Source: Gemmatimonadaceae bacterium (GTDB taxonomy: Bacteria; Gemmatimonadota; Gemmatimonadetes; Gemmatimonadales; Gemmatimonadaceae). From it: a DNA stretch of 39,144 bases. The stretch is from NCBI GenBank assembly GCA_014379205.1, contig JACMME010000166.1, positions 1 through 39,144 on the forward strand. Reading direction: 5' to 3'. This document shows positions 2,658 through 39,140 of the stretch, piece after piece. The position numbers and the translations under genes are program-made. Each line of letters opens with the position of its first letter. Position 1 is the stretch's first letter. Under the pieces are notes generated by a model that made no database searches, had not been told where the DNA came from, and saw nothing but the letters and a program-made list of their open reading frames with translations.

Positions 2658-4709
2658 ATGAGTGAGACGGAGTCCGGTGTCCGGCGGGACGCTGGTTCCG
2701 TATACGAGGCTCGCGACCACCGAGTGGTTCGCGGGCCTTCTCGCATCAACCCTCCGCCGTCGACGCTGGAGCGGATTCGTACCCTGGTCGTGGACGAGCA
2801 CGATGATATCGCCCGCCTCGTAGCCGCGAGAATCGCCGCTCTCATTCGCGAAAAAGAGGCGGCTGGCGACCGCGCCGTCCTCGGTCTGGCTACGGGTTCC
2901 ACGCCCGTGGGCGTGTATAGGGAGCTGATCCGTATGCATCGCACGGAAGGTCTCAGCTTCCAGGATGTGGTGACGTTCAATCTGGATGAGTACCACCCGA
3001 TGTCACCCGAGAGCATCCACTCGTATCACCGCTTCATGTGGGAGAATCTATTCTCGCACGTGAACATCGATCCCGACAACGTGCACATCCCTCGCGGCGA
3101 CGCCGATAGGGACACGATCGACCTGGTGACCCTCCGGTACGAGGAGGCGATCCGTCAGGCGGGCGGAATAGATCTCCAGATCCTCGGCATCGGAAAGACG
3201 GGTCACATTGGATTCAATGAGCCCGGATCCGGGGCGGATAGCAGGACGAGGCTGGTGCATCTCGATGTTGTTACAAGGCGAGACGCCGCGGCCGATTTCT
3301 TCGGCGAGGACAATGTGCCGCGCGAGGCAGTAACCATGGGAGTGGCGACCATCCTCGAAGCGCGAGAGATCGTGATTCTCGCCACGGGCGAGCACAAGGC
3401 GAGAATCGTGAAGCGCGCCGTTGAGGGAGAGATCGACCTGGAAGCCGCGGCGACATTCCTCCAGCGCCACCCCAATACGACCTTCTATGTCGACCGTCCC
3501 GCCGCAGCGGAGCTTACGCGCATTGCAACACCGTGGCTTCTGGACGAAGTGGAATGGACGCCGGATCTCGTAACGCGCGCGGTGGTGTGGCTCGCAGGGC
3601 GGACGGACAAGGCTATCCTCAAACTCACCCCCCGCGACTACGCCGAAAACCAGCTCTCGTCTCTCGTGGCGCGATTCGGCGCGGCCGGAGACGTCAATGG
3701 GACTGTCTTCAACGTTTTGGGGAGCAAGATTCGTGGCAAGTCGAAGCTTCCACATAACAGGAAGATCATCTGCTTCTCTCCCCATCCTGATGATGACGTC
3801 ATCTCAATGGGAGGGATTCTTCATAAGCTGGTTGGCAATAAAAACGATATCACCGTTGCGTACATGACAAGCGGCAACATCGCCGTTTTTGACCACGAGG
3901 TACGGCGGTACGCGGACTTCATGGAGCGCATGGCACGCGATCAGCACATCGGCGAAGGGGAGACACCGCACTTCGCACGTTCGGTAAACGAGTTCCTCGA
4001 CCGCAAGCAACCGGGCGACGTGGACATTCCAGAAGTGCAGGACATAAAGCGAATCATCCGCGAAGCGGAAGCGGTGAGTGGAATAGCGACTCTCGGTCTT
4101 GGACCGGAGCGCGCGCGATTTCTGAATCTTCCGTTCTACCAGACTGGAAAGGTGCGCAAGGATCCTGTTAGTGCCGCTGACGTAGCGATAGTCCGGAATC
4201 TGCTGAAAGAGATCATGCCCGACCTGATCTTTGTAGCGGGAGATTTGTCCGACCCTCATGGCACGCACAGGATGTGCAAGGAAGCGATCGACAGAGCGCT
4301 GGGGAACCGGGAATCGGGAATCGGCAATCGGGAATCGAGGATCTTAAGCGTCGAGGATCAGAATCAAGACATTGTGGAGACCGATTCCCGATTCCCGGTT
4401 CCCGATTCGCGTCATCCCACTGCCCATCCCCTACCGCCTACTCCCGAGGTCTGGCTATACCGCGGCGCCTGGCAGGAGTGGCCCGTTACAGAAGCGACTT
4501 ATCTCGTGCCTCTCTCGCAGGAGGAACTGCGTCTCAAGATCCAGGCGATATTCAAGCATCAATCGCAAAAGGATTCTGCGCCCTTTCCGGGGCAGGACGA
4601 TCGTGAGTTCTGGCAGCGGGTGGAAGAGCGAAACAAGGGTACGGCGGCACAGCTCGACCGGCTCGGCCTGGCTGAGTACTTCGCCATGGAGGCGTACGTC
4701 GTTGAGTGA
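2658..4709 (+). CDS. Bifunctional-looking NagB (glucosamine-6-phosphate deaminase) and PIG-L/LmbE deacetylase fusion, with an in-frame heptamer-repeat insertion
   Basis: 683 residues in two domains. Residues about 35-310 are NagB-like: FNLDEYHP at 107-114 carries the catalytic aspartate region, and GIGKTGHIGFNEPGSG at 177-192 is the sugar-phosphate loop. Residues about 365-640 are PIG-L/LmbE zinc deacetylase-like: PHPDDD at 376-380 and DPHGTHR at 532-538 are the metal and active-site motifs. Fusions of this kind are known in Bacteroidota and relatives. NagB makes fructose-6-phosphate and ammonia from glucosamine-6-phosphate; the PIG-L part may deacetylate the N-acetyl precursor (inference). 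Residues about 549-596 are encoded by 7-bp tandem repeats and break the PIG-L domain between DRAL and VWLYRGAWQEW. No clear ribosome site precedes the ATG, so coupling to the Fe-S carrier 5 bp upstream is likely. Confidence 0.85.
   Translation: MSETESGVRRDAGSVYEARDHRVVRGPSRINPPPSTLERIRTLVVDEHDDIARLVAARIAALIREKEAAGDRAVLGLATGSTPVGVYRELIRMHRTEGLSFQDVVTFNLDEYHPMSPESIHSYHRFMWENLFSHVNIDPDNVHIPRGDADRDTIDLVTLRYEEAIRQAGGIDLQILGIGKTGHIGFNEPGSGADSRTRLVHLDVVTRRDAAADFFGEDNVPREAVTMGVATILEAREIVILATGEHKARIVKRAVEGEIDLEAAATFLQRHPNTTFYVDRPAAAELTRIATPWLLDEVEWTPDLVTRAVVWLAGRTDKAILKLTPRDYAENQLSSLVARFGAAGDVNGTVFNVLGSKIRGKSKLPHNRKIICFSPHPDDDVISMGGILHKLVGNKNDITVAYMTSGNIAVFDHEVRRYADFMERMARDQHIGEGETPHFARSVNEFLDRKQPGDVDIPEVQDIKRIIREAEAVSGIATLGLGPERARFLNLPFYQTGKVRKDPVSAADVAIVRNLLKEIMPDLIFVAGDLSDPHGTHRMCKEAIDRALGNRESGIGNRESRILSVEDQNQDIVETDSRFPVPDSRHPTAHPLPPTPEVWLYRGAWQEWPVTEATYLVPLSQEELRLKIQAIFKHQSQKDSAPFPGQDDREFWQRVEERNKGTAAQLDRLGLAEYFAMEAYVVE
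4302..4445. repeat. Heptamer repeat array pair inside a coding region (word GGGAATC)
   Basis: Left arm 4302-4343 is six tandem 7-mers: GGGAACC, GGGAATC twice, GGCAATC, GGGAATC, then a degenerate copy. Right arm about 4383-4411 has the reverse complement (GATTCCC twice, GGTTCCC, a degenerate copy), followed to about 4445 by a weaker C-rich 7-bp series. The arms can pair into a long hairpin. The left arm begins exactly at the codon for residue 549 of the NagB-PIG-L protein, and three 7-mers equal seven codons, so the frame is kept. The same word occurs in arrays at 7271 and 32278. Confidence 0.9.
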
Positions 4710-4762
4710 GTCATATGTCAGCTAGCACGTCACCACTCCGCCGCCCGTAGCTCGCATCCCGG

Positions 4763-6289
4763 ATGAACCAGAACTTCTCCCTCCTCGACGCCTTGGTCCT
4801 CGTCGCCTATCTCGGTGGAACGACCGCGTTGGGGATGTACATCGGCCGGAATCAAGCCAACGCCAAGGATTACTTCGTCGCCAACCGCGCTATTCCATGG
4901 TGGGCGGTCCTCTTTTCCGTCGTCGCGAGCGAGACGAGCGCGCTGACGTTCATAAGTATTCCGGGACTCGCATATCTCGGTAACCTCGGATTTCTTCAGG
5001 TTGTCGCCGGGTACATCATTGGGCGCATTGTCATCGCCTACACCCTCCTGCCTCGATACTACGAGGGGGAGCTCGTCACAGCGTATGCGCTCCTCGAGCA
5101 GCGCTTCGGCCTCGCTACACGCCGCTTCACGTCCATCGTGTTCATGGTCACCCGCGCCATGGCTGACGCGGTTCGCGTCTTCGCGACCGCCATTCCGGTA
5201 GCGTTGATTCTCGGATCGGCTGTGCCTCGCGAGTATGCGATGCCGGCCGCAATAATCATCCTCGGCCTTCTGACTGTCGTTTACACCTACCGCGGCGGCA
5301 TGAAGGCCGTGGTATGGACCGAGCTTGTCCAGGCAGGTGTTTACCTGCTTGGTGGTACCTCGGCTTTGATTCTATTAGGCAGGTCGGTGGATGGTGGCTG
5401 GAATGCGATCCTCTCCGCGGCGTCAAATGCGGACAAGCTTATGGCGATCGACTGGTACACGGGACTCGACCGCCCTCATACCGTTTTCGCCGGACTGATC
5501 GGCGGCGCTTTTCTATCAATGGCGTCGCACGGCGCCGACCAGCTGATTGTGCAGCGGCTACTGTCTTCCCGCAGCCTGCGTGATGCGCAACGCGCCCTGA
5601 TCGGAAGCGGATTCGTCGTTTTCGCACAGTTCACACTATTCCTCATGATCGGTGTAGGGCTGTGGGTGTTCTACGGCGGACGTACTTTCGCTACACCTGA
5701 CTCGATATTCCCAACGTTCATCGTTGAGAGAATGCCGCCCGGCCTTCTCGGACTTATTCTCGCCGCGATAGTTGCGGCGACCATGAGTACGCATTCGGGA
5801 GCCATCAATTCGCTGGCCGCCGCAACGACTCACGATATCTATCTCCCCCTGACGAAGCGAAGTGCGAATGATCCGGAGACGCTGCGGGTCGGCAAGTTGT
5901 TCGCGCTTATCTGGGGCGTGGGACTCACCGCCGGCGCGCTCTTGTTTCGCGAGCAGGGAACGCCGGTGGTCGTGGTCGCCCTCGGCATAGCCTCGTTCAC
6001 GTACGGAGCGCTTCTCGGCGGATTCTTTCTCGGCATTTTCTGGCCGCGAGCGGTGCAGCGGGACGCGATTACGGGAATGTCGGTTGGTATTTTCGCCATG
6101 GCATTTGTCGTCTTTGCACGGCAGCTCTCAGCGGCGTATCCCGGGCTCGCTGATACACTCGGCCCACTCGCGCGAATCGCATGGCCGTGGTATGTGCTGA
6201 TCGGCACCACGGTAACACTGATCACCGGCGTAGTCTCGTCTTACACGCACGGCAACCCTCGCACGGGCACGGAAAGAGGTGCGGCTTGA
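4763..6289 (+). CDS. Sodium:solute symporter (SSS family), second copy
   Basis: 508 residues, the usual length for a 13-helix SSS symporter of the PutP/SGLT type in the inner membrane. The N-terminal DALVLVAYLGGTTALGMYIG helix and the KDYFVANRAIPWW loop are family hallmarks, and ASETSALTFIS in helix 2 resembles the sodium-site region. It is only distantly related to the 602-residue SSS protein at 267, so the two are unlikely to be recent duplicates and may carry different compounds. The kinase gene downstream starts inside its stop codon (TTGA overlap), which points to a transported sugar that is phosphorylated on entry. The substrate, possibly GlcNAc or MurNAc, is inferred from context. Confidence 0.85.
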   Translation: MNQNFSLLDALVLVAYLGGTTALGMYIGRNQANAKDYFVANRAIPWWAVLFSVVASETSALTFISIPGLAYLGNLGFLQVVAGYIIGRIVIAYTLLPRYYEGELVTAYALLEQRFGLATRRFTSIVFMVTRAMADAVRVFATAIPVALILGSAVPREYAMPAAIIILGLLTVVYTYRGGMKAVVWTELVQAGVYLLGGTSALILLGRSVDGGWNAILSAASNADKLMAIDWYTGLDRPHTVFAGLIGGAFLSMASHGADQLIVQRLLSSRSLRDAQRALIGSGFVVFAQFTLFLMIGVGLWVFYGGRTFATPDSIFPTFIVERMPPGLLGLILAAIVAATMSTHSGAINSLAAATTHDIYLPLTKRSANDPETLRVGKLFALIWGVGLTAGALLFREQGTPVVVVALGIASFTYGALLGGFFLGIFWPRAVQRDAITGMSVGIFAMAFVVFARQLSAAYPGLADTLGPLARIAWPWYVLIGTTVTLITGVVSSYTHGNPRTGTERGAA

Positions 6290-7218
6290 GTCTCGTCGTC
6301 GCGGGAGTTGACGGTGGCGGCTCAAAGACGAAAGTCTGGATCTCGGGTGTTCAGGGTGCGCACCTCGCGGAAGCGGAGGGACCGGGAAGCGCCGTGAAGC
6401 CTGGCGAGGCGGATCGTTCCGCGGATGTTGTCGCGAACACGTTGCGAGAGGCACTCTCCGCTTGCGGAATGCAGAGCGTGATACCACGAGTCCTGTGCAT
6501 TGGTGTCGCCGGCGTCGGTCGCGACGACCAACGTCATGCGCTCTGGCAGGCGCTAACCAATCGCGACATCGCCGACGAGGTAATCGTGCGAACCGACGCG
6601 GAGATCGCGCTGGAAGACGCATTCGGCGACGGCGCCGGCATACTTCTCATCAGTGGAACAGGATCGATAGCGTTAGCGCGGGGACCCGCAGGAGGGAGCG
6701 CACGATGCGGCGGATGGGGCCCAGTATGCGGTGACGAAGGAGGTGGTGCGTGGATCGGTCGGCGCGCACTTTCGGTGGTGACGGCCGCCTCGGACGGGCG
6801 TGAGCCGGAAACGGCCCTGGTCGGAATGATTCTGCAAGCGACAGGCGTCAATCGGATTGAAGAGCTGGTTTCTTGGGCTTCGTCGGCAACTCCCGCGCTG
6901 CTGGCGTCGCTCGTTCCCGCTGTGATAGCAGCCGCGGAAGACGGTGACCAGCGAGCAAACGCATTGCTAGGCATGGCCGCGGAGGAGTTGGTTCTGCATG
7001 TGCGTACGCTTGCTCGCAAGCTCTTCGGAGAGGAACGCGCAGCGTGTCCAGTAGCCTTGACTGGCGGGCTACTCAGTCCGGGTGCCCTGCTCAGAAAGCG
7101 AGTGGAGCATCGGATGAAGGCAGCGGTACCTGGAGCGCAGGTGCGAAGCGAAGAGGTGGTTCCTGTGCGCGGTGCCATTGCGGCAGCGCTCGGGGCGTTG
7201 AAGGCGGGGGTGAATTGA
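6286..7218 (+). CDS. N-acetylglucosamine kinase-like ATPase (BadF/BadG/BcrA/BcrD family)
   Basis: 310 residues with the sugar-kinase/actin-like ATPase fold. The phosphate-1 motif is GVDGGGSKTK at about 7-16, and phosphate-2 is LISGTGSIAL, followed by GGWGPVCGDEGGG, a signature of the NagK/MurK-like branch. It would phosphorylate an imported amino sugar with ATP in the cytoplasm. I chose the TTG start at 6286, which overlaps the symporter stop and has AAAGAGGT just upstream; a longer frame reaching back to 6181 would run inside the symporter gene and is unlikely. GlcNAc is the most likely substrate given the NagB domain in the same cluster. MurNAc or plain glucosamine are alternatives. Confidence 0.85.
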   Translation: MSLVVAGVDGGGSKTKVWISGVQGAHLAEAEGPGSAVKPGEADRSADVVANTLREALSACGMQSVIPRVLCIGVAGVGRDDQRHALWQALTNRDIADEVIVRTDAEIALEDAFGDGAGILLISGTGSIALARGPAGGSARCGGWGPVCGDEGGGAWIGRRALSVVTAASDGREPETALVGMILQATGVNRIEELVSWASSATPALLASLVPAVIAAAEDGDQRANALLGMAAEELVLHVRTLARKLFGEERAACPVALTGGLLSPGALLRKRVEHRMKAAVPGAQVRSEEVVPVRGAIAAALGALKAGVN

Positions 7219-7220
7219 TC

Positions 7221-7344
7221 AGGAACCAGGAACCAGGAACCAGGAACCAGGAACCAGGAACCAGAGAACAGCGAATCGGGAATCGGGAATGGGGAATCGA
7301 AGTAAATAGTGCACCCTAGTTCCTGGTTCCAGGTTCCAGGTGCC
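7221..7344. repeat. Inverted heptamer arrays between convergent genes (words AGGAACC and GGGAATC)
   Basis: The array starts two bases after the kinase stop. Six perfect copies of AGGAACC fill 7221-7262. A second word, GGGAATC with variants, fills 7271-7298. The right arm at 7317-7344 is four copies of the complementary word (TGGTTCC and variants). The first and last arms can pair over about 28 bp, which would make a bidirectional transcription terminator or mRNA 3'-end hairpin for the convergent kinase and symporter genes. No ordinary GC-rich hairpin with a U-tract is present in this gap. Confidence 0.9.
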
Positions 7345-7381
7345 TCTTCCTACCAACTCGTTCGTTTCGCCGTGACCCCAA

Positions 7382-8653: not shown

Positions 8654-8662
8654 CGGTGACTG

Positions 8663-8725
8663 GATTGCGGATTGCGGACTAACTACGAACTACATACTAC
8701 AAACTGCGAACCACGAACTGCGAAC
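8663..8725. repeat. Heptamer array, single arm, upstream of the DAACS symporter
   Basis: Nine consecutive 7-bp words: GATTGCG twice, GACTAAC, TACGAAC, TACATAC, TACAAAC, TGCGAAC, CACGAAC, TGCGAAC. The words drift from one to the next while the 7-bp phase holds. The first 23 bases are identical to those at 24611-24633, about 16 kb away on the same strand. I see no complementary arm in this gap. It lies between the stop of an APC permease (46 bp away) and the ATG of the symporter, so it would be in the symporter's mRNA leader if they are cotranscribed. Confidence 0.85.
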
Positions 8726-8770
8726 AGTGGATAGAGCGGCAAGCTGGGCTCTGCTAACGAAGCGAATGCG

Positions 8771-10282: not shown

Positions 10283-10321
10283 CTGGCAGAAGCCCTATTC
10301 ACGTTCCTCCCCATTACGTCC

Positions 10322-12838: not shown

Positions 12839-12870
12839 CTGGAGATCTCCTGAGAAAAGAAAAGGCTTTG

Positions 12871-12986
12871 GCTGATAGCAAATAGCTGATGGCTGACAGC
12901 AGATCCTTACCGATCAGCGGTGCTGCTAGTCGGAAGCAGAGATGTTAGTGGCACGTGAGATATCAGCCATCTGCCACCTGCTATCC
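12871..12986. repeat. Inverted heptamer arrays (word GCTGATG) between APC permease and hppA
   Basis: Left arm 12871-12905: GCTGATA, GCAAATA, GCTGATG, GCTGACA, GCAGATC. Right arm 12959-12986: four words that are the reverse complement of the same family (GATATCA, GCCATCT, GCCACCT, GCTATCC). Over 25 aligned positions about 20 can pair. The right arm covers the stop codon (12981-12983) of the APC permease, so the array overlaps the last codons of that gene. This is likely the 3' end of the permease transcript. Confidence 0.85.
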
Positions 12987-14465
12987 GGCAACAGCTACAC
13001 GACGCCAGAGATAATAGACCGGGATTCCGATCAATACGAGTGCAAGACCCGACAGCGCCTGGGCCTGCGTAGTTTTCGAAAGAAGGAGGATGATCGCGAC
13101 GGCGGACGCGAGGAAAATGTAGAGAGCCGGCAGGAGCGGGTATCCGATCGCACGGTATGGGCGTTCCGCATCGGGACGCGTGCGCCGAAGAATGAACAGC
13201 CCTATGGTGGTCAGTACATAGAAAATGAGCGCGGCAAAGATTACGTAATCTAGTAATTGTCCGTACGTGCCCGTCAAACACAGAAGTGACGCCCACACCG
13301 ACTGTAGAATCAGCCCCGCCGCCGGAACGCGCCGAGCATTCAATTGCCCTACCTTGCGGAAGAAAAGCCCATCGCGCGCCATGGCGTAGTAGACACGGGC
13401 CCCCGCGAGGATCAATCCGTTGTTGCAGCCAAATGTCGAAACGAGTATCGCGACCGCCATGAGAACGCTTCCCGCCGATCCGAAAATCACCTCCGCCGAC
13501 GCGGTGCCGACGCGGTCCTGAGTCGCGTGGGTGATGCCGCGCTCGAACACCGAAGCACCATTCTCGACGCCGGCGAATGGCAAGGTGTTCAGGTACGCGA
13601 CGTTTGCCATGATATACAGGAGCGTTACGAGACCGGTGCCGATCGCGAGAGCCAGCGGAAGATTGCGTTTCGGGTTGTGAACTTCCGCGGCAGCGAACGT
13701 GACGTTGTTCCACGCGTCGCTCGAGAAGAGCGAGCCTACCATCGCGGCACCAAACGCAATGACGAAGGCGCCTGTTACGTCCACCTGTCCCGCGAACTGT
13801 CCTGACGAGAAATTCGCGGCGAGCGCTTCGGAGCTACGACCAATGGTGAGACCAAGAAGGATCAGAAGTGCAAGCGCTCCGGTCTTCGCGAGCGTGAGCG
13901 AAGTCTGAACTATCTTGCCTTCCTTTACGCCACGGAGATTGATCCACGTCAGTATCCAGATGGAGACCAGCGCAATCAGACGTTGCGGCGAGAGCCCAAG
14001 CTCCACCAGACCACCGGGCGTACTGATATCTGTCTGGGGAAACCAGCCAAACCTGTCTGGTGTGATGCCCGGCACGAGAACACCCAGAAAACGCCCGAAC
14101 GCCACCGCCACGGCGGCGATCGTGCCGGTTTGAATCACAACGAAAAGGGTCCACCCGTACAGAAACCCCAGAAGTGGACCCATTGACTCGCGAAGGAATA
14201 CGTACTGGCCGCCCGCTTTGGGAAACATTGCGGCCAGCTCACCATACGCCAGCGCCCCGAGCAGAGTAATGACGCCAGTAAGCACCCAGGCCATCAGCAA
14301 CCAAAATGGCGAACCGACACTTCGACCAATGGACGCCGATACTATAAAGATGCCTGAGCCGATCATTGAGCCGGCCACCAGCATCGTGGCATCCGTCAGC
14401 GTTAGCGCTTTGACGAATTCAGTCTGCGGCTGGCTGGCCTCACGCTGCTCGGCGGAAGTGGCCAT
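12981..14465 (-). CDS. APC-superfamily amino acid permease, LAT/SteT-like
   Basis: 494 residues, a 12-helix amino acid permease. LTDATMLVAGSMIGSGIFIV carries the GSGIF substrate loop, and AAMFPKAGGQYVFLRES and WNNVTFAAAEVHNPKRNLP are typical of the LAT-type (SteT/YkfD) branch, which exchanges neutral amino acids. It differs strongly from the CAT-like permease at 8771, so the window has two unrelated uptake or exchange systems. A hairpin terminator of the upstream Ton operon lies in front of it, so it probably has its own promoter in the 131-bp gap. Confidence 0.87.
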   Translation of the reverse strand: MATSAEQREASQPQTEFVKALTLTDATMLVAGSMIGSGIFIVSASIGRSVGSPFWLLMAWVLTGVITLLGALAYGELAAMFPKAGGQYVFLRESMGPLLGFLYGWTLFVVIQTGTIAAVAVAFGRFLGVLVPGITPDRFGWFPQTDISTPGGLVELGLSPQRLIALVSIWILTWINLRGVKEGKIVQTSLTLAKTGALALLILLGLTIGRSSEALAANFSSGQFAGQVDVTGAFVIAFGAAMVGSLFSSDAWNNVTFAAAEVHNPKRNLPLALAIGTGLVTLLYIMANVAYLNTLPFAGVENGASVFERGITHATQDRVGTASAEVIFGSAGSVLMAVAILVSTFGCNNGLILAGARVYYAMARDGLFFRKVGQLNARRVPAAGLILQSVWASLLCLTGTYGQLLDYVIFAALIFYVLTTIGLFILRRTRPDAERPYRAIGYPLLPALYIFLASAVAIILLLSKTTQAQALSGLALVLIGIPVYYLWRRVAVAG

Positions 14466-18153: not shown

Positions 18154-18317
18154 GCGTGCTGCGTGATGGGGTGTCTACTGCGTGCTGCGTACTGCGTAAT
18201 GCTTCTCTGTGCTGTCGCGAGTGTGGGGGCCGAGCGGGCTCGAGCCTCTAGGACCGTTTGGAGAAGCTGTTTGGCAGACCAAGCACGCAGTACGCAGTAC
18301 GCAGCAAGAGTTACGTA
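18154..18317. repeat. Inverted heptamer arrays (word GTACTGC) at the end of the kinase gene
   Basis: Left arm 18154-18202: seven words, GCGTGCT, GCGTGAT, GGGGTGT, CTACTGC, GTGCTGC, GTACTGC, GTAATGC. Right arm 18283-18317: GCACGCA, GTACGCA twice, GCAAGAG, TTACGTA, the reverse-complement family. The right arm ends at the base directly before the stop codon (18318-18320) of the minus-strand kinase gene, so the two arms can fold into a 3'-end hairpin of its mRNA. Confidence 0.85.
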
Positions 18318-24579: not shown

Positions 24580-24603
24580 AGAGGATTCGGACTACAACAA
24601 GAA

Positions 24604-24709
24604 GATTGCGGATTGCGGATTGCGGACTAACTAACCGGGGTGTGAAGTCCGAGGTCGACGAAAAGATCAGTCCGAAATCCGCAATCTGAAATCCGCAGTC
24701 CGCAATCCA
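24604..24709. repeat. Inverted heptamer arrays (word GATTGCG) between convergent genes
   Basis: Left arm 24604-24638: GATTGCG three times, GACTAAC, then a degenerate word. Right arm 24668-24709: CAGTCCG, AAATCCG, CAATCTG, AAATCCG, CAGTCCG, CAATCCA, the reverse-complement family. The arms can pair over about 30 bases. The array fills the gap between two convergent genes; the right arm ends 2 bp before the stop of the dehydrogenase gene. The bases at 24611-24633 match 8663-8685 exactly. Confidence 0.9.
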
Positions 24710-29597: not shown

Positions 29598-30044
29598 ATG
29601 CCCGATATCAGTACCGCAACGCGCGTTACGATCCGCTGCCAGTTCTGCCAAACGTGGAACCGGGTCGATGCAAGTCGCGCCAGCGACCGCCCGAAGTGCG
29701 GGAAATGCGCGAAGCCGATGCTGCTCGACCGCCCAATTCACCTTGGGGATGACGACTTCGATCGCACGATTCGCGATTCCGAGATCCCGATTCTTGTTGA
29801 TTTCTACGCCGACTGGTGTGGGCCGTGCAAGATGATGGCGCCGGCTATTGACGAGCTGGCTGCGCGCGTACAGGGTCGCGCGTTGGTCGGGAAGCTCGAC
29901 ACCGATCGCGCCTCGAAGGTCGCTGGCTCCTTTGCCATTCGCGGGATCCCGACAGTTATCGTTTTCAGAAACGGAAGGGAGACGAAGCGCCAAAGCGGCG
30001 CGGTGGGACTGGAAGTTCTTATGGGGATGCTTGACGCGAGCTAG
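29598..30044 (+). CDS. trxC: Thioredoxin TrxC-like (thioredoxin 2) with N-terminal zinc ribbon
   Basis: 148 residues. The N-terminal zinc ribbon has two CxxC pairs (C14, C17, C34, C37), as in E. coli TrxC. The thioredoxin domain has the active site WCGPC (W73-C77) and the cis-proline loop GIPTVIVF. It reduces disulfides and may supply the peroxiredoxin encoded at 23038. ATG 29598 has GGAG six bases upstream. Its stop is the first part of a heptamer array. Confidence 0.93.
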   Translation: MPDISTATRVTIRCQFCQTWNRVDASRASDRPKCGKCAKPMLLDRPIHLGDDDFDRTIRDSEIPILVDFYADWCGPCKMMAPAIDELAARVQGRALVGKLDTDRASKVAGSFAIRGIPTVIVFRNGRETKRQSGAVGLEVLMGMLDAS

Positions 30045-30184
30045 GGACCAGGTACCAGGCATCAGGAACTAGGACTGCGGAACGGCGCATCATGTAAGGG
30101 AAGGCGTGGTATTGCGTTCGAATCCGTCCCTCCCGAAATCGACCCCTTGTGCCTGGTTCCTGGTACCTTGTCCCTCCTTCCTAT
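30044..30184. repeat. Inverted heptamer arrays (word GGTACCA) between trxC and actF
   Basis: Left arm 30044-30085: GGGACCA, GGTACCA, GGCATCA, GGAACTA, GGACTGC, GGAACGG. Right arm 30150-30184: TGCCTGG, TTCCTGG, TACCTTG, TCCCTCC, TTCCTAT, the reverse-complement family. The left arm begins at the last base of the trxC stop and the right arm ends at the first base of the actF stop. So the two arms run from stop codon to stop codon, with about 65 bp between them, and can fold as one bidirectional hairpin. Confidence 0.92.
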
Positions 30185-31509
30185 TACTCGTGTGCAGGCA
30201 ACGGCCGCATGGTCTCCGCATCAACCGGCACTTGCACCTCGTCGCGGTATGGCGATGAGAGTAGCGTCGCGCGCATGCGAGGGAAGGCGTTCATGAACGC
30301 GATGTAGCAAAGTCCCCAGAGGCCGATGAAGCCCATACCCACTCCGACTTCCCAAATGCCGAAGGGAAGTCCGTGGGCCTCCGGGTGGATAGACGGATAC
30401 GTTTCGATGAAGCGAAGCAGCCAAATTCCGAAAATGCTGATAGTGGCGAAAAGGATGAACGTGGGGAGGAACACTTTCGCTGCGCGGGACATCAGACCGA
30501 AGAACGGCAGCACGAACACCATGAAGACAACGGCGAGCGTTGCAGGCAGCCATGGCTGGATAAGCCGGAGACGCATCCAGTGTGTCTCCTCCGCAAGGTT
30601 TCCGTACCAGATCACCAGATACTGCCCGAACGTGAGATAGCCCCAGAAAGTGGTGAATGCAAAGCACAACTTGCCGAGATCGTGGATGTGCGTCTCGGTG
30701 ATGAGGTCATAGGTGTCGAGGTGTTTCCGCCACCACATCACCAGAAGACTCCACGTCATGAGAGCGGCGAGCCATCCCCCCATGAAAAACCACCAGGAGT
30801 ACAGTGCGCTCTGAAAGTGCACGTCGAGGGTCATCGACAGATCCCAGGCAAATACAGTGTAGAAGAAGCCGAAGGCCAGACACAACCATACCGCCAGCTT
30901 CCCCTGTAGTGAATGCGTGGAATGGATGGCGCGACGCTCGTCGGCAATGCCCCGGCGCATGCGATCCCGCAGCCCGCGCGCCCATGAGGCACCCGCATCG
31001 GGGACGAAGCCGACATCGAGGCGGACGCTGGTGTAGATGTACCAGATGCTCAACGCCGTAATGATGGCGAAGAGAATGAGATCGCGTGGAATGAGAAAGC
31101 CCGGATCGAGATAGACGCGCTTCTCAGCGACAGTCACTGCTTCGTGAGCCCACGGAAAAATGTGCCCCTTGCCGAGGAAAATCAGAATCAGAAGCACAAA
31201 CGCGACAGGCAGAAAGGCGACATAACCTTCCAGGAAACGCACAATCGGGCGAGACCAGCGCGAAGTAGTGATTCGCTGCACGGCTACGAAAACGACTCCG
31301 GCCTGCGACATGCTGGCGAAAAAGAGCCAGTTGAAATGCAGCGCCTGCCAGGCCCGTGGCTCTCCGGTTATCGCGCCGATTACGAAGACGATGGCTCCGA
31401 TGACCGCAAGGGCGCCGCTCGCGAGCGTAAACACGCGCGGTATCGGCCTGCTGGTCGCCGCGACGATCTCGTCGCGCGACATGACGTGGGTGGCGTCGTG
31501 CTGCGTCAT
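30184..31509 (-). CDS. actF: Alternative complex III subunit ActF (quinol:cytochrome c oxidoreductase)
   Basis: 441 residues and about 10 membrane helices. ActF resembles ActC of the same complex and is thought to be a menaquinol-binding or proton-path subunit. TM helices are visible from residue about 25 on, and the loop WARGLRDRMRRGIADERRAI lies near the middle. It is the last gene of the operon actABCDEF. The 5-bp gap to actE shows cotranscription. Assignment rests mainly on its position and length. Confidence 0.9.
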   Translation of the reverse strand: MTQHDATHVMSRDEIVAATSRPIPRVFTLASGALAVIGAIVFVIGAITGEPRAWQALHFNWLFFASMSQAGVVFVAVQRITTSRWSRPIVRFLEGYVAFLPVAFVLLILIFLGKGHIFPWAHEAVTVAEKRVYLDPGFLIPRDLILFAIITALSIWYIYTSVRLDVGFVPDAGASWARGLRDRMRRGIADERRAIHSTHSLQGKLAVWLCLAFGFFYTVFAWDLSMTLDVHFQSALYSWWFFMGGWLAALMTWSLLVMWWRKHLDTYDLITETHIHDLGKLCFAFTTFWGYLTFGQYLVIWYGNLAEETHWMRLRLIQPWLPATLAVVFMVFVLPFFGLMSRAAKVFLPTFILFATISIFGIWLLRFIETYPSIHPEAHGLPFGIWEVGVGMGFIGLWGLCYIAFMNAFPRMRATLLSSPYRDEVQVPVDAETMRPLPAHE

Positions 31510-31514
31510 CGAGC

Positions 31515-32261
31515 TCAGTAGTGGGCGGTAGGGGGTGGTGAGTTCGGGGGTTGCTGTGGCGGCGGGGTTGCGGTGGAGTCAGTGCCGGACCTGCCATGCG
31601 ACAGCGAATCAGCGGCCACGCTGTCAGCTGTCGTGCCGGCACCTGGCTTGTGAAACGGGGCGGGACGCGTGGGCGCAGTTCGGCTTACACCCGGCACCTT
31701 GCTACCGGTTTCGCCAGGTACGCCCATTTCCGTCGAGACTGCCTTTCCAACGCCCTGGAGTCCGCGGATATAGTTGACCACGTCCCAACGATCCAGCTCC
31801 TCGATACGGTTGTAGTTCGGCATGGAGCCGCGCCCGTTTCGGATGATGCCGAAGTAATAGCCGTCGGAAAGTCCCTTTGCGCGATCGGTGACGAGGCTCG
31901 GCGCTGCGATTCCGTAATTCAGGGCAGGGCCGTTCCCCGCCCCGCTTGCGCCATGGCACACTGTGCAGTTGATCTGGTAATACTTTCGACCGTTCTCTAT
32001 CGAGCTGTCGGTCGCCGCGGCTGGATTCTCGAGACTTGCCATCGAATCGATTACAGCCGGCATCACGGTCAGGAAAGCGCCGCGCGATACAATGAACCCT
32101 GGCACCGCACTGCCATATACCGGCACCGAAAATTGCGGATTGCCACGAAAGGGAGTTGTGTCATTCCCCGCCATCTCCGCCTCCCATGGCTCGATACGAG
32201 GCTGATCCTTGAAGTCGGTGAACCAGGAGCAGGAGAGGAGAAATGGCATGACGACCAACAT
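31515..32261 (-). CDS. actE: Alternative complex III subunit ActE, monoheme cytochrome c lipoprotein
   Basis: 248 residues with the start I prefer, ATG 32261 (MLVVMPFLLSC). The lipobox places the mature N-terminal cysteine at C11. The heme site is CTVCHG (C99, C102, H103), with a distal methionine likely in GSMPNY. The C-terminal 60 residues are Pro/Thr-rich and probably disordered, ending PPQQPPNSPPPTAHY. A longer frame starting at 32399 would begin with residues encoded by a heptamer array and is rejected. The cytochrome accepts electrons from ActB/ActA and passes them to a soluble or oxidase cytochrome c. Confidence 0.92.
   Translation of the reverse strand: MLVVMPFLLSCSWFTDFKDQPRIEPWEAEMAGNDTTPFRGNPQFSVPVYGSAVPGFIVSRGAFLTVMPAVIDSMASLENPAAATDSSIENGRKYYQINCTVCHGASGAGNGPALNYGIAAPSLVTDRAKGLSDGYYFGIIRNGRGSMPNYNRIEELDRWDVVNYIRGLQGVGKAVSTEMGVPGETGSKVPGVSRTAPTRPAPFHKPGAGTTADSVAADSLSHGRSGTDSTATPPPQQPPNSPPPTAHY
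31517..31560. repeat. Degenerate heptamer-like G-rich series at the 3' end of actE
   Basis: Starting at the actE stop codon, the plus strand reads as 7-bp words such as GTGGGCG, GTAGGGG, GTGGTGA, GTTCGGG. The similar series GTAGGCG, GTAGGGG appears on the complement of the array at 4302-4445. It encodes the Pro-rich tail of ActE. Copies are weak, so this is tentative. Confidence 0.35.
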
Positions 32262-32277
32262 GATGCTCCCACCCCTC

Positions 32278-32388
32278 GGGAATCGGGAATCGGGAATCGG
32301 GACTCTGCCCTTCCGATACCGAGATCCCCGCAAGCGGCGGAATTCCGGGGGGTGTCCCACTACCCATCCCCCATCCCCCACTCCCCAA
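32278..32388. repeat. Heptamer arrays (words GGGAATC and CATCCCC) between actD and actE
   Basis: Left series 32278-32305: GGGAATC three times and GGGACTC. Right series 32358-32385: CACTACC, CATCCCC twice, CACTCCC, up to the actD stop at 32389-32391. The two words are not each other's complement. The right series is the reverse complement of the array at 39109-39133: 25 bp are identical (32363-32387). These lie in the 127-bp gap that precedes the actE start. Confidence 0.85.
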
Positions 32389-32889
32389 TCAGCGCTCACT
32401 TCTCACCTCCACCGCGCCATTTCGCTCAAGTGTCGCAGCGACCGCGCGCTCCTTGTCAGGCGGACAGGCAACCCATACACCGAAAGCACCGTCGCTGAAG
32501 CGGGGATCGTAGCCAACGGTCATGGTAAGCCGGGGCACGCGAGCGTTGATGAACAATCCAGCAACTGTTGCGAGCGATCCAATCAACACCATCATCTCGA
32601 ACCCGAAGATTGTGTATGGCACCCAGGCTGCTATTGGTTTACCGCCCACCACCAGCGGCCAGTAATCCGATGCCCAGATGGCGATCCAGTATCCGAACGT
32701 CGCTCCAAGTAGTCCGCCAATCAGGGTAAAGCGTCGCACAACACTCGGGCCGTGCGCCATCACGTGTTCGATCTCGTGGCGGGGTGTGGCGGAATAAACG
32801 GTTATGTCGCCGGAGCGCTCCTTCTTGAGCGCCGCGACCGCGTCAACCAGAGAATCGAGCTCGTGGAATACTCCCAGCACCCCGCGCAT
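32389..32889 (-). CDS. actD: Alternative complex III subunit ActD (DUF3341)
   Basis: 166 residues. Two membrane helices are at about 58-77 and 92-115, flanked by soluble segments: HELDSLVDAVAALKKE near the N-terminus and VACPPDKERAVAATLERNGA near the C-terminus, with EIEHVMAHGPSVVRRF between. This is the DUF3341 family, ActD of ACIII, a membrane-bound subunit of unclear role. Its start overlaps the actC stop by one base, so the genes are coupled. Confidence 0.92.
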   Translation of the reverse strand: MRGVLGVFHELDSLVDAVAALKKERSGDITVYSATPRHEIEHVMAHGPSVVRRFTLIGGLLGATFGYWIAIWASDYWPLVVGGKPIAAWVPYTIFGFEMMVLIGSLATVAGLFINARVPRLTMTVGYDPRFSDGAFGVWVACPPDKERAVAATLERNGAVEVRSER

Positions 32890-34346: not shown

Positions 34347-37300
34347 GAGCCCCCTCGGTCGCAGGTGCCGCCGTTGTCTGGCCCGGCGCCAAATGATTGA
34401 CCTTCTTCAAATACACAACCGCTGTGAACGTGTTGAGCTCCTCGAAGACATGGTACGCGCGGCGGTCGTTGACCTGACGCGAAACCGCCCAGTCGGGGCT
34501 GGCCGCGTCACCAAAGGTGATCGCGCGAGAAGGGCACGCTTGCGCGCACGCCACCGTGAACTCATCGGGCTGCACCGCGCGATGCTCGAGCGACGCGCGA
34601 TTCTCCGCTTCGCGAATACGCTGCACGCAGAAGGTGCACTTCTCCATCACGCCCTTGCCACGCACGTTCACGTCCGGATTGAGCTGCCAGTTGAGCGGTT
34701 CGGGCCACGCATACTGGGGACGATTGGGTTCTCCGTATCCGAACCAGTTGAAGTAGCGGACCTTGTATGGGCAGTTGTTGGAGCAGTACCGCGTACCAAC
34801 GCATCGATTATAAACCTGGACGTTCAGGCCGTCGGGTGAGTGGTACGTTGCGTACACGGGACATACCGGCTCGCAAGGCGCATTGCCGCAGTGCTGGCAA
34901 AGCATCGGCACAAAGCGAGTGTCGAACTCGTAGGCGCCGTTTTCCCCACCTTCGTAGTACCGCTCGAGTCGGAGCCATGCCATTTCCCGACCGCGATGAA
35001 TATTTCCTCCAGGCGTCGGCTCGACCACGGCGCGTTTGGTCTGGTACGCCGCGCCTACCGTGGGAATGTTGTTCTCGGCGTAGCACGCAGTAACGCACGC
35101 AGAGCAGCCAGTGCAGCGGGCGAGATCGATTGTCATGGCCCAGCGACGGTTCGCCATTCCGCTGGAATGCTTGGGATCGTACATCCCCTTGTCGTTCGCT
35201 TCGGTATCTGCCAGCCCGCCTTCAGCATCCTGCGCGACGGGAGCTCGAAGACCGGGAAGAAACTCATGCGAGGCGTCGCCGGGAAAGTGATGCACACCAG
35301 CTTCGGCAGCCGCTTCCGCACCATGCGTTGCCGGTGGGTCGCCAGCCGTTACCGGTGGAGTCGCTTCATGCTCGGGAGCATCCGCATCACGCAACCCTGT
35401 TGGAGTCAGGATCAGTGCGCGTCCGATTCCCCTGCCGTGCTGTCGTGCGGAACCCTCGGTCGTGACGAGCTGCTGATAACCGCCTTCCTTGGTGACTCTG
35501 ACCTTGATTGAAGTCCATGCCAGAGCGCCGGACGCTGATTCGAACCCTGCTGGCAGCAAGTCGAGCGGGTTGACGCCCACACCCGCAGCGTAACGTCCGT
35601 ATCCCTCCAGCACCGTGCCTTCGGGGTAGCCGCGATGCGTGAGCGCATCGGTTCCGGCACGGGAGGAGCGGTGTCCCTGCCCGAACATCATTGCTACGGT
35701 GTCCTGACGAATGCCAGGATAGATGTAAGCGGGCGCCGTCAACTTGAGGCCAGTCGCGGATTCCAGTGTCAGAAGCTCACCTGGATCGACGTCGAGCCGG
35801 GCCGCCGTGGTCGGATGAACTTCCACCCAGGATTGCCAGCAGATCTTGCTGACGGGATCGGGAAGCTCCTGAAGCCACGGCTTGTTCGCGCCACGATCTC
35901 CGAGAACCGCCGATGGATACACTGTTAGAAAGAAATCGCCCGCCTGACTCTCCAATGGCGTGGGAGCGGTAACTGTGGCAAGCGTTCGCAGAGGACGAAC
36001 GGCGGGCGCAGCCCTGTCGATAACGGCAGTCTCCAGGGCCTTGGCGAACGCAGAAGCGCCGCCCTCGTATCGGCCGATGAGCCACGAACGGTAGTCAGCA
36101 GCGGGGTACTGCGCAGCCGTTGTCTGATTACCCTTTGCGAGGGTAATGAGCACGTCGGCAGTGGCGCGGGTGCTGAAAACGGGATCCATCGTGGGCTGCT
36201 GCAGAGACATGACACTCGTCGTCGCCTGTGCGTCTCCCCACGACTCGAGCGGATGATGATCAGGCAGCACGAGATCGCATAGCTCGGAAGTTTCGTCAGG
36301 ATAACTCGAGAAACTCACCTTGAAAGCGACCTTTGCGATCGCTTCGGCGAACTTGCCGCTTCGTGGCAGCGTAAAGATCGGGTTTGCGTTTCGAACCATC
36401 AGCAGGGGAACCCGGCCGTCGTTCATGCGCGCAAGCGCCTCCGCAATTTCCGCTGGCGAGGACACGGTGTCGAAGGCGGAGATTCCCTCAGCCGGTCTGA
36501 TGGTGACGCCAACATTTCCGGCGGCATTGTTCAGCGCATTCACCGCAAGGGCCACAGCCATCGCATCGCTGGTAGTGACGCCTGAGAGCATCAGACTCGG
36601 CCGGGTATCGGCCCATTCGCGACCGAGGCGCTCCAGCGTAGCAGCCGGCACACCAGCCGCTTGCGCCGCCTGATCGAGGGATGCGCCGGCTGCGCCACTG
36701 AGCGCATTCACGATGGCAAGCTCGCTCCCGGGCTTGCATGGTATCCACTCATCCGCATTGAGTCCGGTGAGTGACCGCCGGGATCCGATGTACACCAGTC
36801 GTGGAGCGCCCTCGATTTTGGCGCGCGCGTCCGCGAAGTCGAGCTGTTGCGGCACGGTGGCGCCCCAGCCGTCGAGGAAATCCGCGCCAACCGATACAAT
36901 CAGCTTCGCCTCCGAGAAGCGCAGCGCGGGCCAGGACACGCCGAACGACTGGCGGTTGGCCGCAACCACGGAAATGTCTGCCAGCGCGTCATAGCTCAAG
37001 TGCGCGGGCATGCCGAAGCCAGCCAGCCACTGATCCAAAAAGGCGGGGAAGCTTCCAGTCTCGCTGCCATTGATAAAAACCGAATCGCCGGCCCGTCCCG
37101 CGCTGCGCACTTCTCCGAGCTTCTGCGAAAGAGTCTGAAGCGCCTGGTCCCACGTCACTGGCTCGAGCCTGTTATTGCGCCGCAGCATCGGCCCGCGATA
37201 ACGATCCGGGTTGTACAGTCCCTGCAACGCCGCTTGGCCGCGCGCGCACAGCGCACCGCGATTCAGGGGGTGTGCGGGATTGCCCTCGAGCTTGATTGTG

Positions 37301-37548
37301 CGACCGTCACGCGTCTCCGCGATCAAGCCACACGCAACGGCGCACTCTCGACAGGTGGTTGCGTAATAAGTCGAGACACCGGGAACTGTTTCGTCGGGAT
37401 GATTGAGATACGGAATGAGTCTCTCAACTCGATCGGAGCTGCATCCAATGGCGGCCGTCGTCGCGGTGGTAGCGCCGAGAATTTTGAGGAACTCGCGCCT
37501 CGTCCCACCCGAGCGGGTAACTCCGTTCGGCTCCTTGCTAGGACTCAT
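34330..37548 (-). CDS. actB: Alternative complex III subunit ActB (fused molybdopterin-type and Fe-S domains)
   Basis: 1072 residues. A Tat-type N-terminus (RREFLKILGATTATTAAIGC) is followed by a large domain (about 50-690) of the complex iron-sulfur molybdoenzyme family, which in ACIII carries no molybdenum. TTCRECAVACG lies near 50 and may be a degenerate cluster site. The C-terminal ferredoxin-like domain has CTGCSACVTACYAENN, CQHCGNAPCEPVCP, CVGTRYCSNNCPY, CTFCVQRIREAENR and CAQACP: ligands for four Fe-S clusters. A His/Ala-rich linker near 720-770 separates the halves. It receives electrons from menaquinol and feeds them to the cytochrome subunits. Confidence 0.95.
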   Translation of the reverse strand: MSPSKEPNGVTRSGGTRREFLKILGATTATTAAIGCSSDRVERLIPYLNHPDETVPGVSTYYATTCRECAVACGLIAETRDGRTIKLEGNPAHPLNRGALCARGQAALQGLYNPDRYRGPMLRRNNRLEPVTWDQALQTLSQKLGEVRSAGRAGDSVFINGSETGSFPAFLDQWLAGFGMPAHLSYDALADISVVAANRQSFGVSWPALRFSEAKLIVSVGADFLDGWGATVPQQLDFADARAKIEGAPRLVYIGSRRSLTGLNADEWIPCKPGSELAIVNALSGAAGASLDQAAQAAGVPAATLERLGREWADTRPSLMLSGVTTSDAMAVALAVNALNNAAGNVGVTIRPAEGISAFDTVSSPAEIAEALARMNDGRVPLLMVRNANPIFTLPRSGKFAEAIAKVAFKVSFSSYPDETSELCDLVLPDHHPLESWGDAQATTSVMSLQQPTMDPVFSTRATADVLITLAKGNQTTAAQYPAADYRSWLIGRYEGGASAFAKALETAVIDRAAPAVRPLRTLATVTAPTPLESQAGDFFLTVYPSAVLGDRGANKPWLQELPDPVSKICWQSWVEVHPTTAARLDVDPGELLTLESATGLKLTAPAYIYPGIRQDTVAMMFGQGHRSSRAGTDALTHRGYPEGTVLEGYGRYAAGVGVNPLDLLPAGFESASGALAWTSIKVRVTKEGGYQQLVTTEGSARQHGRGIGRALILTPTGLRDADAPEHEATPPVTAGDPPATHGAEAAAEAGVHHFPGDASHEFLPGLRAPVAQDAEGGLADTEANDKGMYDPKHSSGMANRRWAMTIDLARCTGCSACVTACYAENNIPTVGAAYQTKRAVVEPTPGGNIHRGREMAWLRLERYYEGGENGAYEFDTRFVPMLCQHCGNAPCEPVCPVYATYHSPDGLNVQVYNRCVGTRYCSNNCPYKVRYFNWFGYGEPNRPQYAWPEPLNWQLNPDVNVRGKGVMEKCTFCVQRIREAENRASLEHRAVQPDEFTVACAQACPSRAITFGDAASPDWAVSRQVNDRRAYHVFEELNTFTAVVYLKKVNHLAPGQTTAAPATEGAHGGGN

Positions 37549-37554
37549 GTCGTC

Positions 37555-38109
37555 TCAGTAATGGCAGGTACTGCAGTCGTATCTCGCCTTGAACGGCGGA
37601 TTCGATTCGCCAAGGTGGCATTGGACGCACCATCCCATATTCAATGAAGCGACCTGCGTGACGCGCTGCATGTCCTGCACCTGGCCGTGACAGGTTTGAC
37701 AGCTGACGCCGGCGTTCACATGGCGCATGTGCGGGAACTGCACGTAGTCGGGCACCTTGTGAATGCGAACCCACGGAATGGGCTGGCCCTTCTTCCAGAA
37801 CTCCTGAAGGGTCGCGACTCCAGGACGCGCGCTTCCATCAGGCTTCTTCGGCCCCACTGTGATATGGCATCCCATGCATGTGGCAACCGCGGGAAGACCA
37901 GGATCAGGCGACTTGCCGGCGGCGAAATGGCAGTACATGCAGTTCATTGCCAGCGTCTTGACGTGCACCGGATGTGGGAACGGGAGGGGCTGTTCGATGT
38001 CGCGGCCTTCGTCGCTCGAGGCGCCGCTGTAAGCGGAGAGAACAACAGCTGCTGCAGCGAGAGCGAGAAGCCCGGGGATAGCCGCCCACTTCCTCATCGT
38101 CGTCGTCAT
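37555..38109 (-). CDS. actA: Alternative complex III subunit ActA, pentaheme cytochrome c
   Basis: 184 residues. A membrane anchor or signal helix is at about 8-25. Five CxxCH heme sites are visible: CMYCH, CMGCH, CQTCH, CVQCH and, at the C-terminus, CSTCHY. Five is the usual count for ActA. It is the first gene of actABCDEF, and six bases separate it from actB. It sits on the periplasmic side and carries electrons to the downstream cytochromes. The promoter should lie in the 38110-38227 region or beyond. Confidence 0.95.
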   Translation of the reverse strand: MTTTMRKWAAIPGLLALAAAAVVLSAYSGASSDEGRDIEQPLPFPHPVHVKTLAMNCMYCHFAAGKSPDPGLPAVATCMGCHITVGPKKPDGSARPGVATLQEFWKKGQPIPWVRIHKVPDYVQFPHMRHVNAGVSCQTCHGQVQDMQRVTQVASLNMGWCVQCHLGESNPPFKARYDCSTCHY

Positions 38110-38227
38110 TCACACCTGGTTCGTGTCGAGTGCCGGCTTCTGTCGCGGCGAAATGTGACGGGGGATATGGGGGGGACGCAAGGTGGAACTGTGCGCGCCA
38201 AACAATAAATCTTTGCGCAACGAGTGC

Positions 38228-38311
38228 GGTGTTCGGTGTTCGGTTCCCGGTTGGTACTGCGCGGTGCTCGGTGCCCGGTTGGTACAGCGCGGTGGACGGG
38301 GCTCGGCTAAC
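38228..38311. repeat. Heptamer array (word GGTGTTC) with a 28-bp higher-order repeat
   Basis: Twelve 7-bp words from 38228: GGTGTTC twice, GGTTCCC, GGTTGGT, ACTGCGC, GGTGCTC, GGTGCCC, GGTTGGT, ACAGCGC, GGTGGAC, GGGGCTC, GGCTAAC. The four words at 38235-38262 repeat with few changes at 38263-38290. The last word runs over the stop codon of the amidohydrolase gene. I see no inverted partner. The array lies upstream of the actA start. Confidence 0.88.
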
Positions 38312-39140
38312 CACGTTCAACCAGCTTCACGGGAAACCCTGACGGAGCAATGTCTTTGGCGGTCGCGAAGACGCTGTGGGCGAGATCGTCCGGCAGGAGA
38401 TCCAGATTGGCGCGTGGAGTTTGGCTCAGTCTCAGGGGCCAGCCGCTGCCGTATATGAGTCGGTCGGGTCCTATGGTTCGAATCAAATGAGCCAGGTCGT
38501 CATCGGGGGGACCCCATATCCAGGAGATATCCCACCAGAGCCTGGACCGTTCATCCGGCGTGAGACCCCAATGCACTTCTTCTATTGTCCCGCGGCCAGC
38601 GGCTGTGACGAGGATCCGGGTGTGCTTGCTTGCTCGGGCAATCGATCGAATCGCAGCGCCAGTGAGATCGCCCGCTGTGTCCATTTGATGGCGTTGGCGC
38701 AAGTCCTCGAAGCGAACGGTGAGAAGTAGAGCGACGCCGGCTTCGCCGCACGCGATAGCCAGCGAATGCATTGACTGGTCGTGAGGGCCCATTCCCCACT
38801 GCGGCGGGTAAGCGCGCACCGCCGGAACGCCGAGCGCCGCGGCATTGGCCAGCGTTCTTTCCCATTTCGGCCAATCGGGTCGAATGGTCGGCACAGGTTT
38901 TAGAGTGGGCGTATGGGCCTGCGTCGCTTCAAAGAGCTCGAGGTTGCCGTGCGAGGGATCCCGGTAAAAAGCGCTCGGAAGGTGCCCGACCCAGGCGTGC
39001 TGGACGCTGTCGCGCGCAAGAACCTTTACGAGAATGTCCGGATCGGGGTGCGGCACGTACCGAAAGGGATACGCGCCGATGAAGGTGTTGACGTCCGTGA
39101 CTGCCGAATGGGGAGTGGGGGATGGGGGATGGGGAGTCAA
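38307..39140 (-). CDS. Amidohydrolase-like TIM-barrel protein (start uncertain)
   Basis: Up to 277 residues. VNTFIGAYPFRYVPHPDPD near the N-terminus and LIYGSGWPLRLSQTPRANLD near the C-terminus have the look of amidohydrolase_2-like barrels. The first 12 or so residues (TPHPPSPTPHS) are encoded by a heptamer array at 39109-39133 and include a TTG as the only usual start codon; either the array overlaps the true N-terminus or the start is beyond the window edge. The metal ligands are not all obvious: no clear HxH is seen near the N-terminus, so the protein may be inactive or use another set. Convergence with the act operon is not shown; both run on the minus strand. Confidence 0.55.
   Translation of the reverse strand: MTPHPPSPTPHSAVTDVNTFIGAYPFRYVPHPDPDILVKVLARDSVQHAWVGHLPSAFYRDPSHGNLELFEATQAHTPTLKPVPTIRPDWPKWERTLANAAALGVPAVRAYPPQWGMGPHDQSMHSLAIACGEAGVALLLTVRFEDLRQRHQMDTAGDLTGAAIRSIARASKHTRILVTAAGRGTIEEVHWGLTPDERSRLWWDISWIWGPPDDDLAHLIRTIGPDRLIYGSGWPLRLSQTPRANLDLLPDDLAHSVFATAKDIAPSGFPVKLVERG
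39109..39137. repeat. Heptamer array (words GGGGAGT and GGGGGAT) at the window edge
   Basis: Words GGGGAGT, GGGGGAT twice, GGGGAGT. The 25 bases at 39109-39133 are the reverse complement of 32363-32387. It lies over the likely start of the amidohydrolase frame. Confidence 0.8.

Follow-up and report, generated by a model that had tools for sequence, protein, structure and literature searches.

Extragenic palindromes with 7-bp repeat arms in a Gemmatimonadaceae genome and the turnover of their words between congeners

The 39,144-nt stretch of Gemmatimonadaceae DNA analysed here (the window; contig C251 of the genome G000) carries, mostly between its genes, arrays of tandem 7-bp words, several of which pair with a second array of the same word in inverted orientation. 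G000 is a metagenome-assembled genome (MAG) of 4.1 Mb in 339 contigs, and its named relatives are nearly all Gemmatimonadota, mainly Gemmatimonadaceae, with a top protein identity of 74%. A preliminary description of the window had listed arrays at ten places. We searched for 7-bp arrays with Tandem Repeats Finder (TRF) and with a lag scan (lags 2-15, score of at least 12), using 20 order-2 Markov sequences as controls. The scan gave ten segments at lag 7, five at lag 14 and none at the remaining lags from 2 to 15, while the controls contained no lag-7 segment at this score. Most of the ten places were recovered in this way; the array at 12871 is weak and degenerate (TRF score 33), and the one at 30044 lies under both repeat thresholds, being visible by eye and by its fold. 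The arrays, with the analyses on which each rests, are the following.

4302-4337, + strand: 5' arm, GGGAATC array within an open reading frame (ORF, 2658-4709) for a nagB-like/PIG-L fusion (TRF, lag scan; hairpin z -6.8).
4381-4408, - strand: 3' arm, GGGAATC on the - strand (TRF); with 4302-4337 and a C-rich tail to about 4442 it makes up an extra in-frame linker.
7220-7299, + strand: composite 5' arm in a convergent gap, seven CAGGAAC units starting 2 bp past the stop at 7218, then GGGAATC units (TRF, lag scan, fold).
7319-7341, - strand: 3' arm, GTTCCTG/GTTCCAG, matching CAGGAAC (TRF, fold).
8662-8725, + strand: composite array, GGATTGC passing into AACTACG/AACTGCG, with a junction found again at four other sites in the genome (TRF, junction search).
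12871-12996, no strand assigned: degenerate GCTGATA/GCTGATG hairpin (TRF; fold z -2.7).
18157-18202, + strand: 5' arm, TACTGCG array (TRF, array detected at 18176-18202; fold).
18285-18304, - strand: 3' arm, ACGCAGT array (TRF, fold).
24604-24626, + strand: 5' arm, GATTGCG array in a convergent gap (TRF, fold).
24671-24708, - strand: 3' arm, TCCGCAA array (TRF, fold).
30044-30185, no strand assigned: degenerate CAGGAAC-type hairpin in the convergent gap between a thioredoxin gene and an unknown gene (fold); the orthologous site in genome G033 has four CAGGAGT units.
32276-32390, no strand assigned: TCGGGAA array (32276-32302), then CCCATCC array (32363-32390), unlike words that make a poor hairpin (TRF, fold); the site in genome G145 has a GCGGATT hairpin.
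38227-38294, + strand: CGGTGNN family, a 28-bp (4x7) direct repeat with the dispersed leader GCAACGAGTG and no hairpin (TRF, fold).
39109-39134, + strand: GGGGATG array at the window edge, where pairing is not assessable; it lies within a predicted ORF or at its start (TRF, lag scan).

Eight of the window's array sites were folded and compared with 200 shuffles each. Hairpins that beat all shuffles are formed at six of them (z of -6.8 at 4300, -5.4 at 18160, -5.3 at 24603, -4.1 at 7219, -3.5 at 30044 and -2.7 at 12866), in agreement with the six hairpins described previously, and the sites at 32276 (z -0.5) and 38226 (z +1.2) do not fold better than shuffled sequence.

The 7-bp period extends over the genome. 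Own-genome stretches totalling 411 kb, partly selected via array matches, contain 118 lag-7 arrays compared to 0-5 at lags besides 7, 14, 21 and 28; in 154 kb of contigs selected independently of arrays there are 15 at lag 7 and 7-9 at lags 5, 6, 8-13 and 15, with 7 of each being runs of N. Having tandem 7-bp units in excess of other periods, the arrays are heptameric simple sequence repeats (SSRs) of the short tandemly repeated repetitive (STRR) type. Among 57 pairs of neighbouring arrays (at most 300 bp apart), 32 are inverted pairs of the same word, against a mean of 8.8 and a maximum of 18 in 2000 shuffles. For the most part the arrays form the arms of long extragenic palindromes.

It had also been supposed that each site has its own word, which does not hold. 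The vocabulary, drawn from about 565 kb of G000, comprises some eight words that recur genome-wide, mainly GGGAATC, CAGGAAC/CAGGGAC, GATTGCG, AACTGCG/TACTGCG, CGGTGCC, GGGGATG and GCTGATG. Three of them are repeated within the window (GGGAATC at 4302, 7273 and 32276; GATTGCG at 8662 and 24604; GGGGATG at 32363 and 39109) and are found many times across G000. The composite junction GGATTGC-GGAC-AACTGCG occurs at five sites in total, with the order reversed in some 3' arms. The CGGTGNN family is a repeat class separate from the hairpins: its copies (L003-L022, L136, L141 and the window at 38227-38294) are direct, share the leader and have a 28-bp higher-order unit ending in CGGTTGGTACAGCG, and the array at 38228 is not a hairpin. 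Apart from this family no shared cores were found among the G000 hairpins, and cores mostly show no relationship between one element and the next. The gaps of G000 hold other dispersed, non-periodic motifs as well, at four sites each (GAGATTGCTTCGCCGCT, CGAGCTGGGTTTATGC and GACTCTGACCCCTTGA).

Array richness is sporadic in the family. One word-class pattern matched in 25 of 179 family genomes, and in a survey of 40 genomes (about 20 kb each) other vocabularies were seen in G005, G055, G038, G043 and G004, with arrays absent from the surveyed stretches of most relatives. The genomes compared are MAGs, the samples are partial and some were picked by array matches, and the multiple tests made share these data and are uncorrected. 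Because several contigs break off within arrays (L008 and L148 at their ends, L127 and L260 at their starts), the arrays of these MAGs are probably more numerous and longer than they appear. Such contig ends would suit an assembly or sequencing artefact, an explanation that we find barely credible in view of pattern matches by the hundred in MAGs that were assembled separately, the occupation of the same sites in two congeners and the lack of an excess at other lags.

According to gene calls from a home-made, simple hexamer model, 112 of the 132 placeable arrays lie in gaps. When G000 and genus g34 are taken together, 25 of 56 convergent gaps contain arrays, as do 63 of 252 tandem and 13 of 80 divergent ones, and the difference between convergent and divergent gaps is marked (p=0.0004). 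The divergent cases are verified by Pfam, with flanking domains in the called directions (for example kinase/Fapy glycosylase, SBP_bac_5/response regulator and histidine-biosynthesis protein/plastocyanin). In tandem gaps the arrays show no preference for distance to the stop over distance to the start (33:31). The earlier placement of arrays at gene ends holds as no more than a bias, since the block at 4302-4442 is inside an ORF, the array at 39109 lies in a predicted ORF or at its start, and divergent gaps have arrays too. In unpaired arrays the G-rich strand points away from the closest gene edge and into the gap (40:15, p=0.001), alike at starts and stops. This orientation, together with the precedents of TAACTGA in Beggiatoaceae (PMC4679880) and GGGAATC (PMC4692102), would speak for binding arrays of a DNA- or RNA-binding protein or for G-quadruplex formers. 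We hold such a role to be very improbable, because the words vary within and between genomes, many have no G-tracts (AACTGCG, GATTGCG, GACTAGT) and the orientation is the same at both gene ends.

The block at 4302-4442 lies within a gene resembling glucosamine-6-phosphate deaminase (nagB-like), fused to a PIG-L domain, and the blast matches of most relatives break there. From one conserved anchor to the other the protein measures 72 residues in the window compared to 31-58 in the relatives read. The same linker carries hairpins of other words, GATTGCG and AACTGCG/AGCTGCG, in G145 (L043, listed as G059, and L144) and in G033 (L044), so that an in-frame, translated hairpin stands in the nagB-like gene of three species. 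At such a place within a gene it is unlikely to act as a terminator.

Do the arrays then do the work of terminators, as had been suggested? Long inverted repeats are equally frequent in the convergent gaps of G000 (13 of 38) and of array-poor relatives (10 of 29; 34% each), but gaps with such a hairpin hold heptad arrays in 11 of 13 cases in G000 and in none of 10 in the relatives. Since frequency is the same and the material differs, the heptad hairpins appear to replace, or to grow out of, ordinary convergent-gap hairpins. Convergent gaps with arrays less often contain a short terminator-like hairpin (1 of 25 vs. 8 of 29, p=0.028), which lends weak support to the claim that arrays are missing where an ordinary hairpin terminator stands; the tandem gaps show no significant difference. 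A U-tract (at least 6 T in 10 nt) follows the 3' arm at only 4 of 123 flanks. Because U-tracts are absent and one hairpin is translated in-frame, the arrays are not simply terminators. Searches for known RNA families returned nothing besides tRNA above the gathering score, and the long hairpins match only microRNA models, and these weakly.

These data bear on the hypothesis that the hairpins are selected at 3' ends, as bidirectional terminators or as ends that stabilise RNA, with sequences that can drift freely while the arms still pair. The convergent-gap enrichment, the mutual exclusion of arrays and short hairpins in convergent gaps, the unchanged frequency of long convergent hairpins and the retention of orthologous hairpins through word changes (see below) give it a real but minor share of our belief. 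It fits poorly with the rarity of U-tracts, the arrays in divergent gaps, the translated hairpin, the weak folding at 32276 and 38226 and the relatives whose surveyed stretches have no arrays. Moreover, non-Watson-Crick positions on the sense strand in tandem gaps comprise 12 G-U and 15 A-C, so wobble pairs are not favoured and no G-U signature of selection on RNA is seen.

The comparison of G033 with G145, two congeners of genus g34 with 83-88% nucleotide identity in array loci, shows how the hairpins change at fixed positions. Downstream of a nagK-like gene both species keep arms of CAGGAGT type, which in G033 are exact mirror images over 33 bp, unit order included. At L146:15257/L143:13496 one species has GGAGTCA where the other has GGGGCCA, with both arms changed, and several more hairpins at conserved positions differ in arm sequence. 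At other orthologous sites one species holds a full element and the other has no element, only a remnant, or a hairpin built of a different word, even with an 8-bp-like unit; gains and losses are unpolarised. Among 37 orthologous gaps, G145 has a long inverted repeat in 8 of the 15 in which G033 has one, compared to 1 of the 22 in which it has none (p=0.001). In g34 the two arms mirror each other's order of units more than shuffling would give (p=0.003), and at L151:15038-15176 the palindrome extends into adjoining unique sequence (GATGAAG/CTTCATC). The mirrored order, the indifference to wobble and this extension all fit fold-back copying of one arm onto the other.

Repeats with other units occur in the genus, too. 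G145 has 8-bp-like GGGGTCGA palindromic arrays (L252:8290-8500 and L253:4193-4279) where G033 has 7-bp ones, and g34 has long hairpins with non-heptad arms, such as CCACAGAGGCACAGAGGCACGGAG with a repetition of about 8-9 bp (L149:2452, L151:10617 and L151:15779), again in convergent gaps. A 2.2-kb segment with an EgtD-like gene (L150:17823-20000 vs. L241:81-2251) is 97% identical between G033 and G145 against a background of about 80%; it begins inside an array element, and the gene is absent from the syntenic G145 contig, which may reflect either recombination at arrays or bin contamination.

Two elements are dispersed as wholes in g34. Each is found at roughly a dozen places or more, where its core is conserved and the flanks are unrelated. 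In E1, [GGAGTCA]n is followed by a core, whose two GC-rich stem-loops lie around CTCATCAGATGAG, and then by [TGACTCC]n; the core of E2 is GGGTGTCAGGGTG..CCCTGACACCC. When the two cores were joined and searched family-wide, with four candidates scored per genome, only G033 and G145 gave matches, each of them to the E1 core and 92-99% identical to the query core. The fold of E1 is a single long hairpin bearing side loops (z -9.0). In a comparison of 11 copies, changes on both sides were present at 10 of 54 pairs, including swaps of CG to GC, with no wobble intermediate, and the loop of stem 2 reads TTC or its reverse complement GAA. Such a loop flip is the product expected of template switching between inverted repeats (PMC8604942).

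Dispersed elements of this kind invite comparison with non-autonomous mobile palindromes, similar to miniature inverted-repeat transposable elements (MITEs) or repetitive extragenic palindromic (REP) sequences, which a dedicated transposase would move and whose expanded terminal inverted repeats would be the heptads. The recurrence of E1 and E2, presence and absence at orthologous sites, the recurring words of G000 and the constant leader of the CGGTGNN family are in line with this explanation, which we nevertheless judge unlikely: words change in place at orthologous sites, and no target-site duplication is evident by eye, at boundaries blurred by the arrays. A Y1 transposase of the REP-associated tyrosine transposase (RAYT) type (PF01797) was not found in the array-rich G000, G145, G004 and G005, an absence that is uncertain in MAGs, and was rejected as the driver. 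The same applies to a reverse transcriptase, after the telomerase-like DRT10 idea (PMC12632851), as RVT_1 was not found in array-rich G033, G145, G004 and G005. Loss of the palindrome nuclease SbcCD was rejected as well, given an SbcD-like gene in 47 of 48 genomes, array-rich G000, G033, G145, G004 and G005 among them, with matches mostly under the family cut-off.

To which process, then, should the palindromes be ascribed? We give about an even chance to the explanation that they are made and continually rewritten at the level of DNA by fold-back template switching. The starting point would be a short inverted repeat, in many cases a hairpin lying between two gene ends, that folds back during replication; polymerase slippage would lengthen an arm, presumably in steps of 7 nt; and fold-back template switching would then copy arm onto arm, leaving the same word in both and at times a flipped loop. 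Whole elements or words would be copied to other loci, by whatever route, giving each genome a small recurring vocabulary, and selection would clear most coding sequence and promoters, so that survivors remain between genes, chiefly in convergent gaps. There the array hairpins could stand in for ordinary terminator hairpins and in this way might affect transcription. It is known that arms become homogenised and spacers inverted when templates are switched between inverted repeats (PMC8604942), and that such switching creates and maintains hairpins (PMC8794818). The homogenisation of both arms by template switching, put forward in the preliminary description, thus gains from the two-arm word changes, the mirrored order in g34 and the loop flips, and less from the window's own genome, where mirrored order is only suggestive (p=0.095).

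That last value is one of several points that weigh against fold-back template switching. Dispersal of whole elements is seen only in genus g34, the cores of G000 being mostly unrelated, and the lack of an evident target-site duplication counts here as well. Absence at some orthologous sites could reflect deletion and not the state before a gain. We found no reason for a unit of exactly 7 bp, and 8- and 9-bp-like versions exist. Finally, home-made gene calls and MAG genomes weaken the case. Distinctly improbable, in our view, is some dedicated activity with a 7-nt ruler that writes heptad words into gene-end hairpins and spreads them between loci, so that 3'-end hairpins would be rewritten genome-wide in a lineage-specific vocabulary.

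Beyond the arrays, the window has at 32889-37548 genes with matches to membrane complex proteins of the DsrP and QrcB/QrcC types, which appear to make up an alternative quinone-oxidoreductase cluster.

The arrays belong to the same kind as the GGGAATC heptamers of Xanthomonas, which according to Rehm et al. are 89-93% intergenic, lie near the 5' neighbouring ORF, form 70-75 convergent inverted pairs and have no known function (PMC4692102). Nostoc has the heptamer GGGGA(T/C)T (PMC4692102). With these heptamers the arrays share tandem 7-bp units, the word GGGAATC, a mostly intergenic location, inverted pairs able to form stem-loops and a variation in length and sequence between related species. 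In comparison to Xanthomonas, however, one genome here has about eight words and related genera have others, both arms change word at orthologous sites, and arrays can end dispersed elements with conserved cores and are present in most long convergent-gap hairpins. As cited in PMC4692102, Calothrix has several heptamer words per genome, and Mrazek, as cited there and in PMC4679880, found heptamers to dominate long SSRs in most genomes; a polymerase-footprint idea is cited in these two papers as well. Cyanobacterial STRRs, the precedent named in the preliminary description, and the TAACTGA repeats of BOGUAY are likewise dispersed intergenic 7-bp tandem repeats, so the period has a parallel there; the closer architectural precedent is the Xanthomonas pairs. 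TAACTGA stands mostly just upstream of start codons, in 169 direct sets and one inverted (PMC4679880), whereas inverted pairs with a convergent-gap bias dominate here. REP sequences, bacterial interspersed mosaic elements (BIMEs) and MITEs resemble our elements in being extragenic, palindromic and dispersed, with E1 and E2 cores shared at unrelated loci, but several array-rich genomes yielded no RAYT/Y1, there is no fixed word, and the tandem-heptad arms turn over in place. Quasipalindrome template-switch mutations offer arm homogenisation, spacer inversion and the creation of perfect stems (PMC8604942, PMC8794818, PMC7202029); they are known as sporadic events, while here they would act at many loci per genome and with 7-nt repetition. 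Our searches found no literature on heptamers in Gemmatimonadota. As far as they show, what is new comprises the multi-word vocabulary, the exchange of words in both arms in place, the elements with conserved cores and the apparent substitution of heptad hairpins for ordinary ones in convergent gaps.

Heptamers are over-represented among the long simple repeats of many bacterial genomes for reasons that are unsettled. The change of word in both arms of hairpins at fixed positions, in congeners that can still be aligned, makes the question testable by setting slippage, fold-back copying, mobility and selection against one another. A further gain is a natural system where a mutational process seems to replace the hairpins at gene ends and structured RNA ends would be built by errors of DNA copying before selection acts on them.

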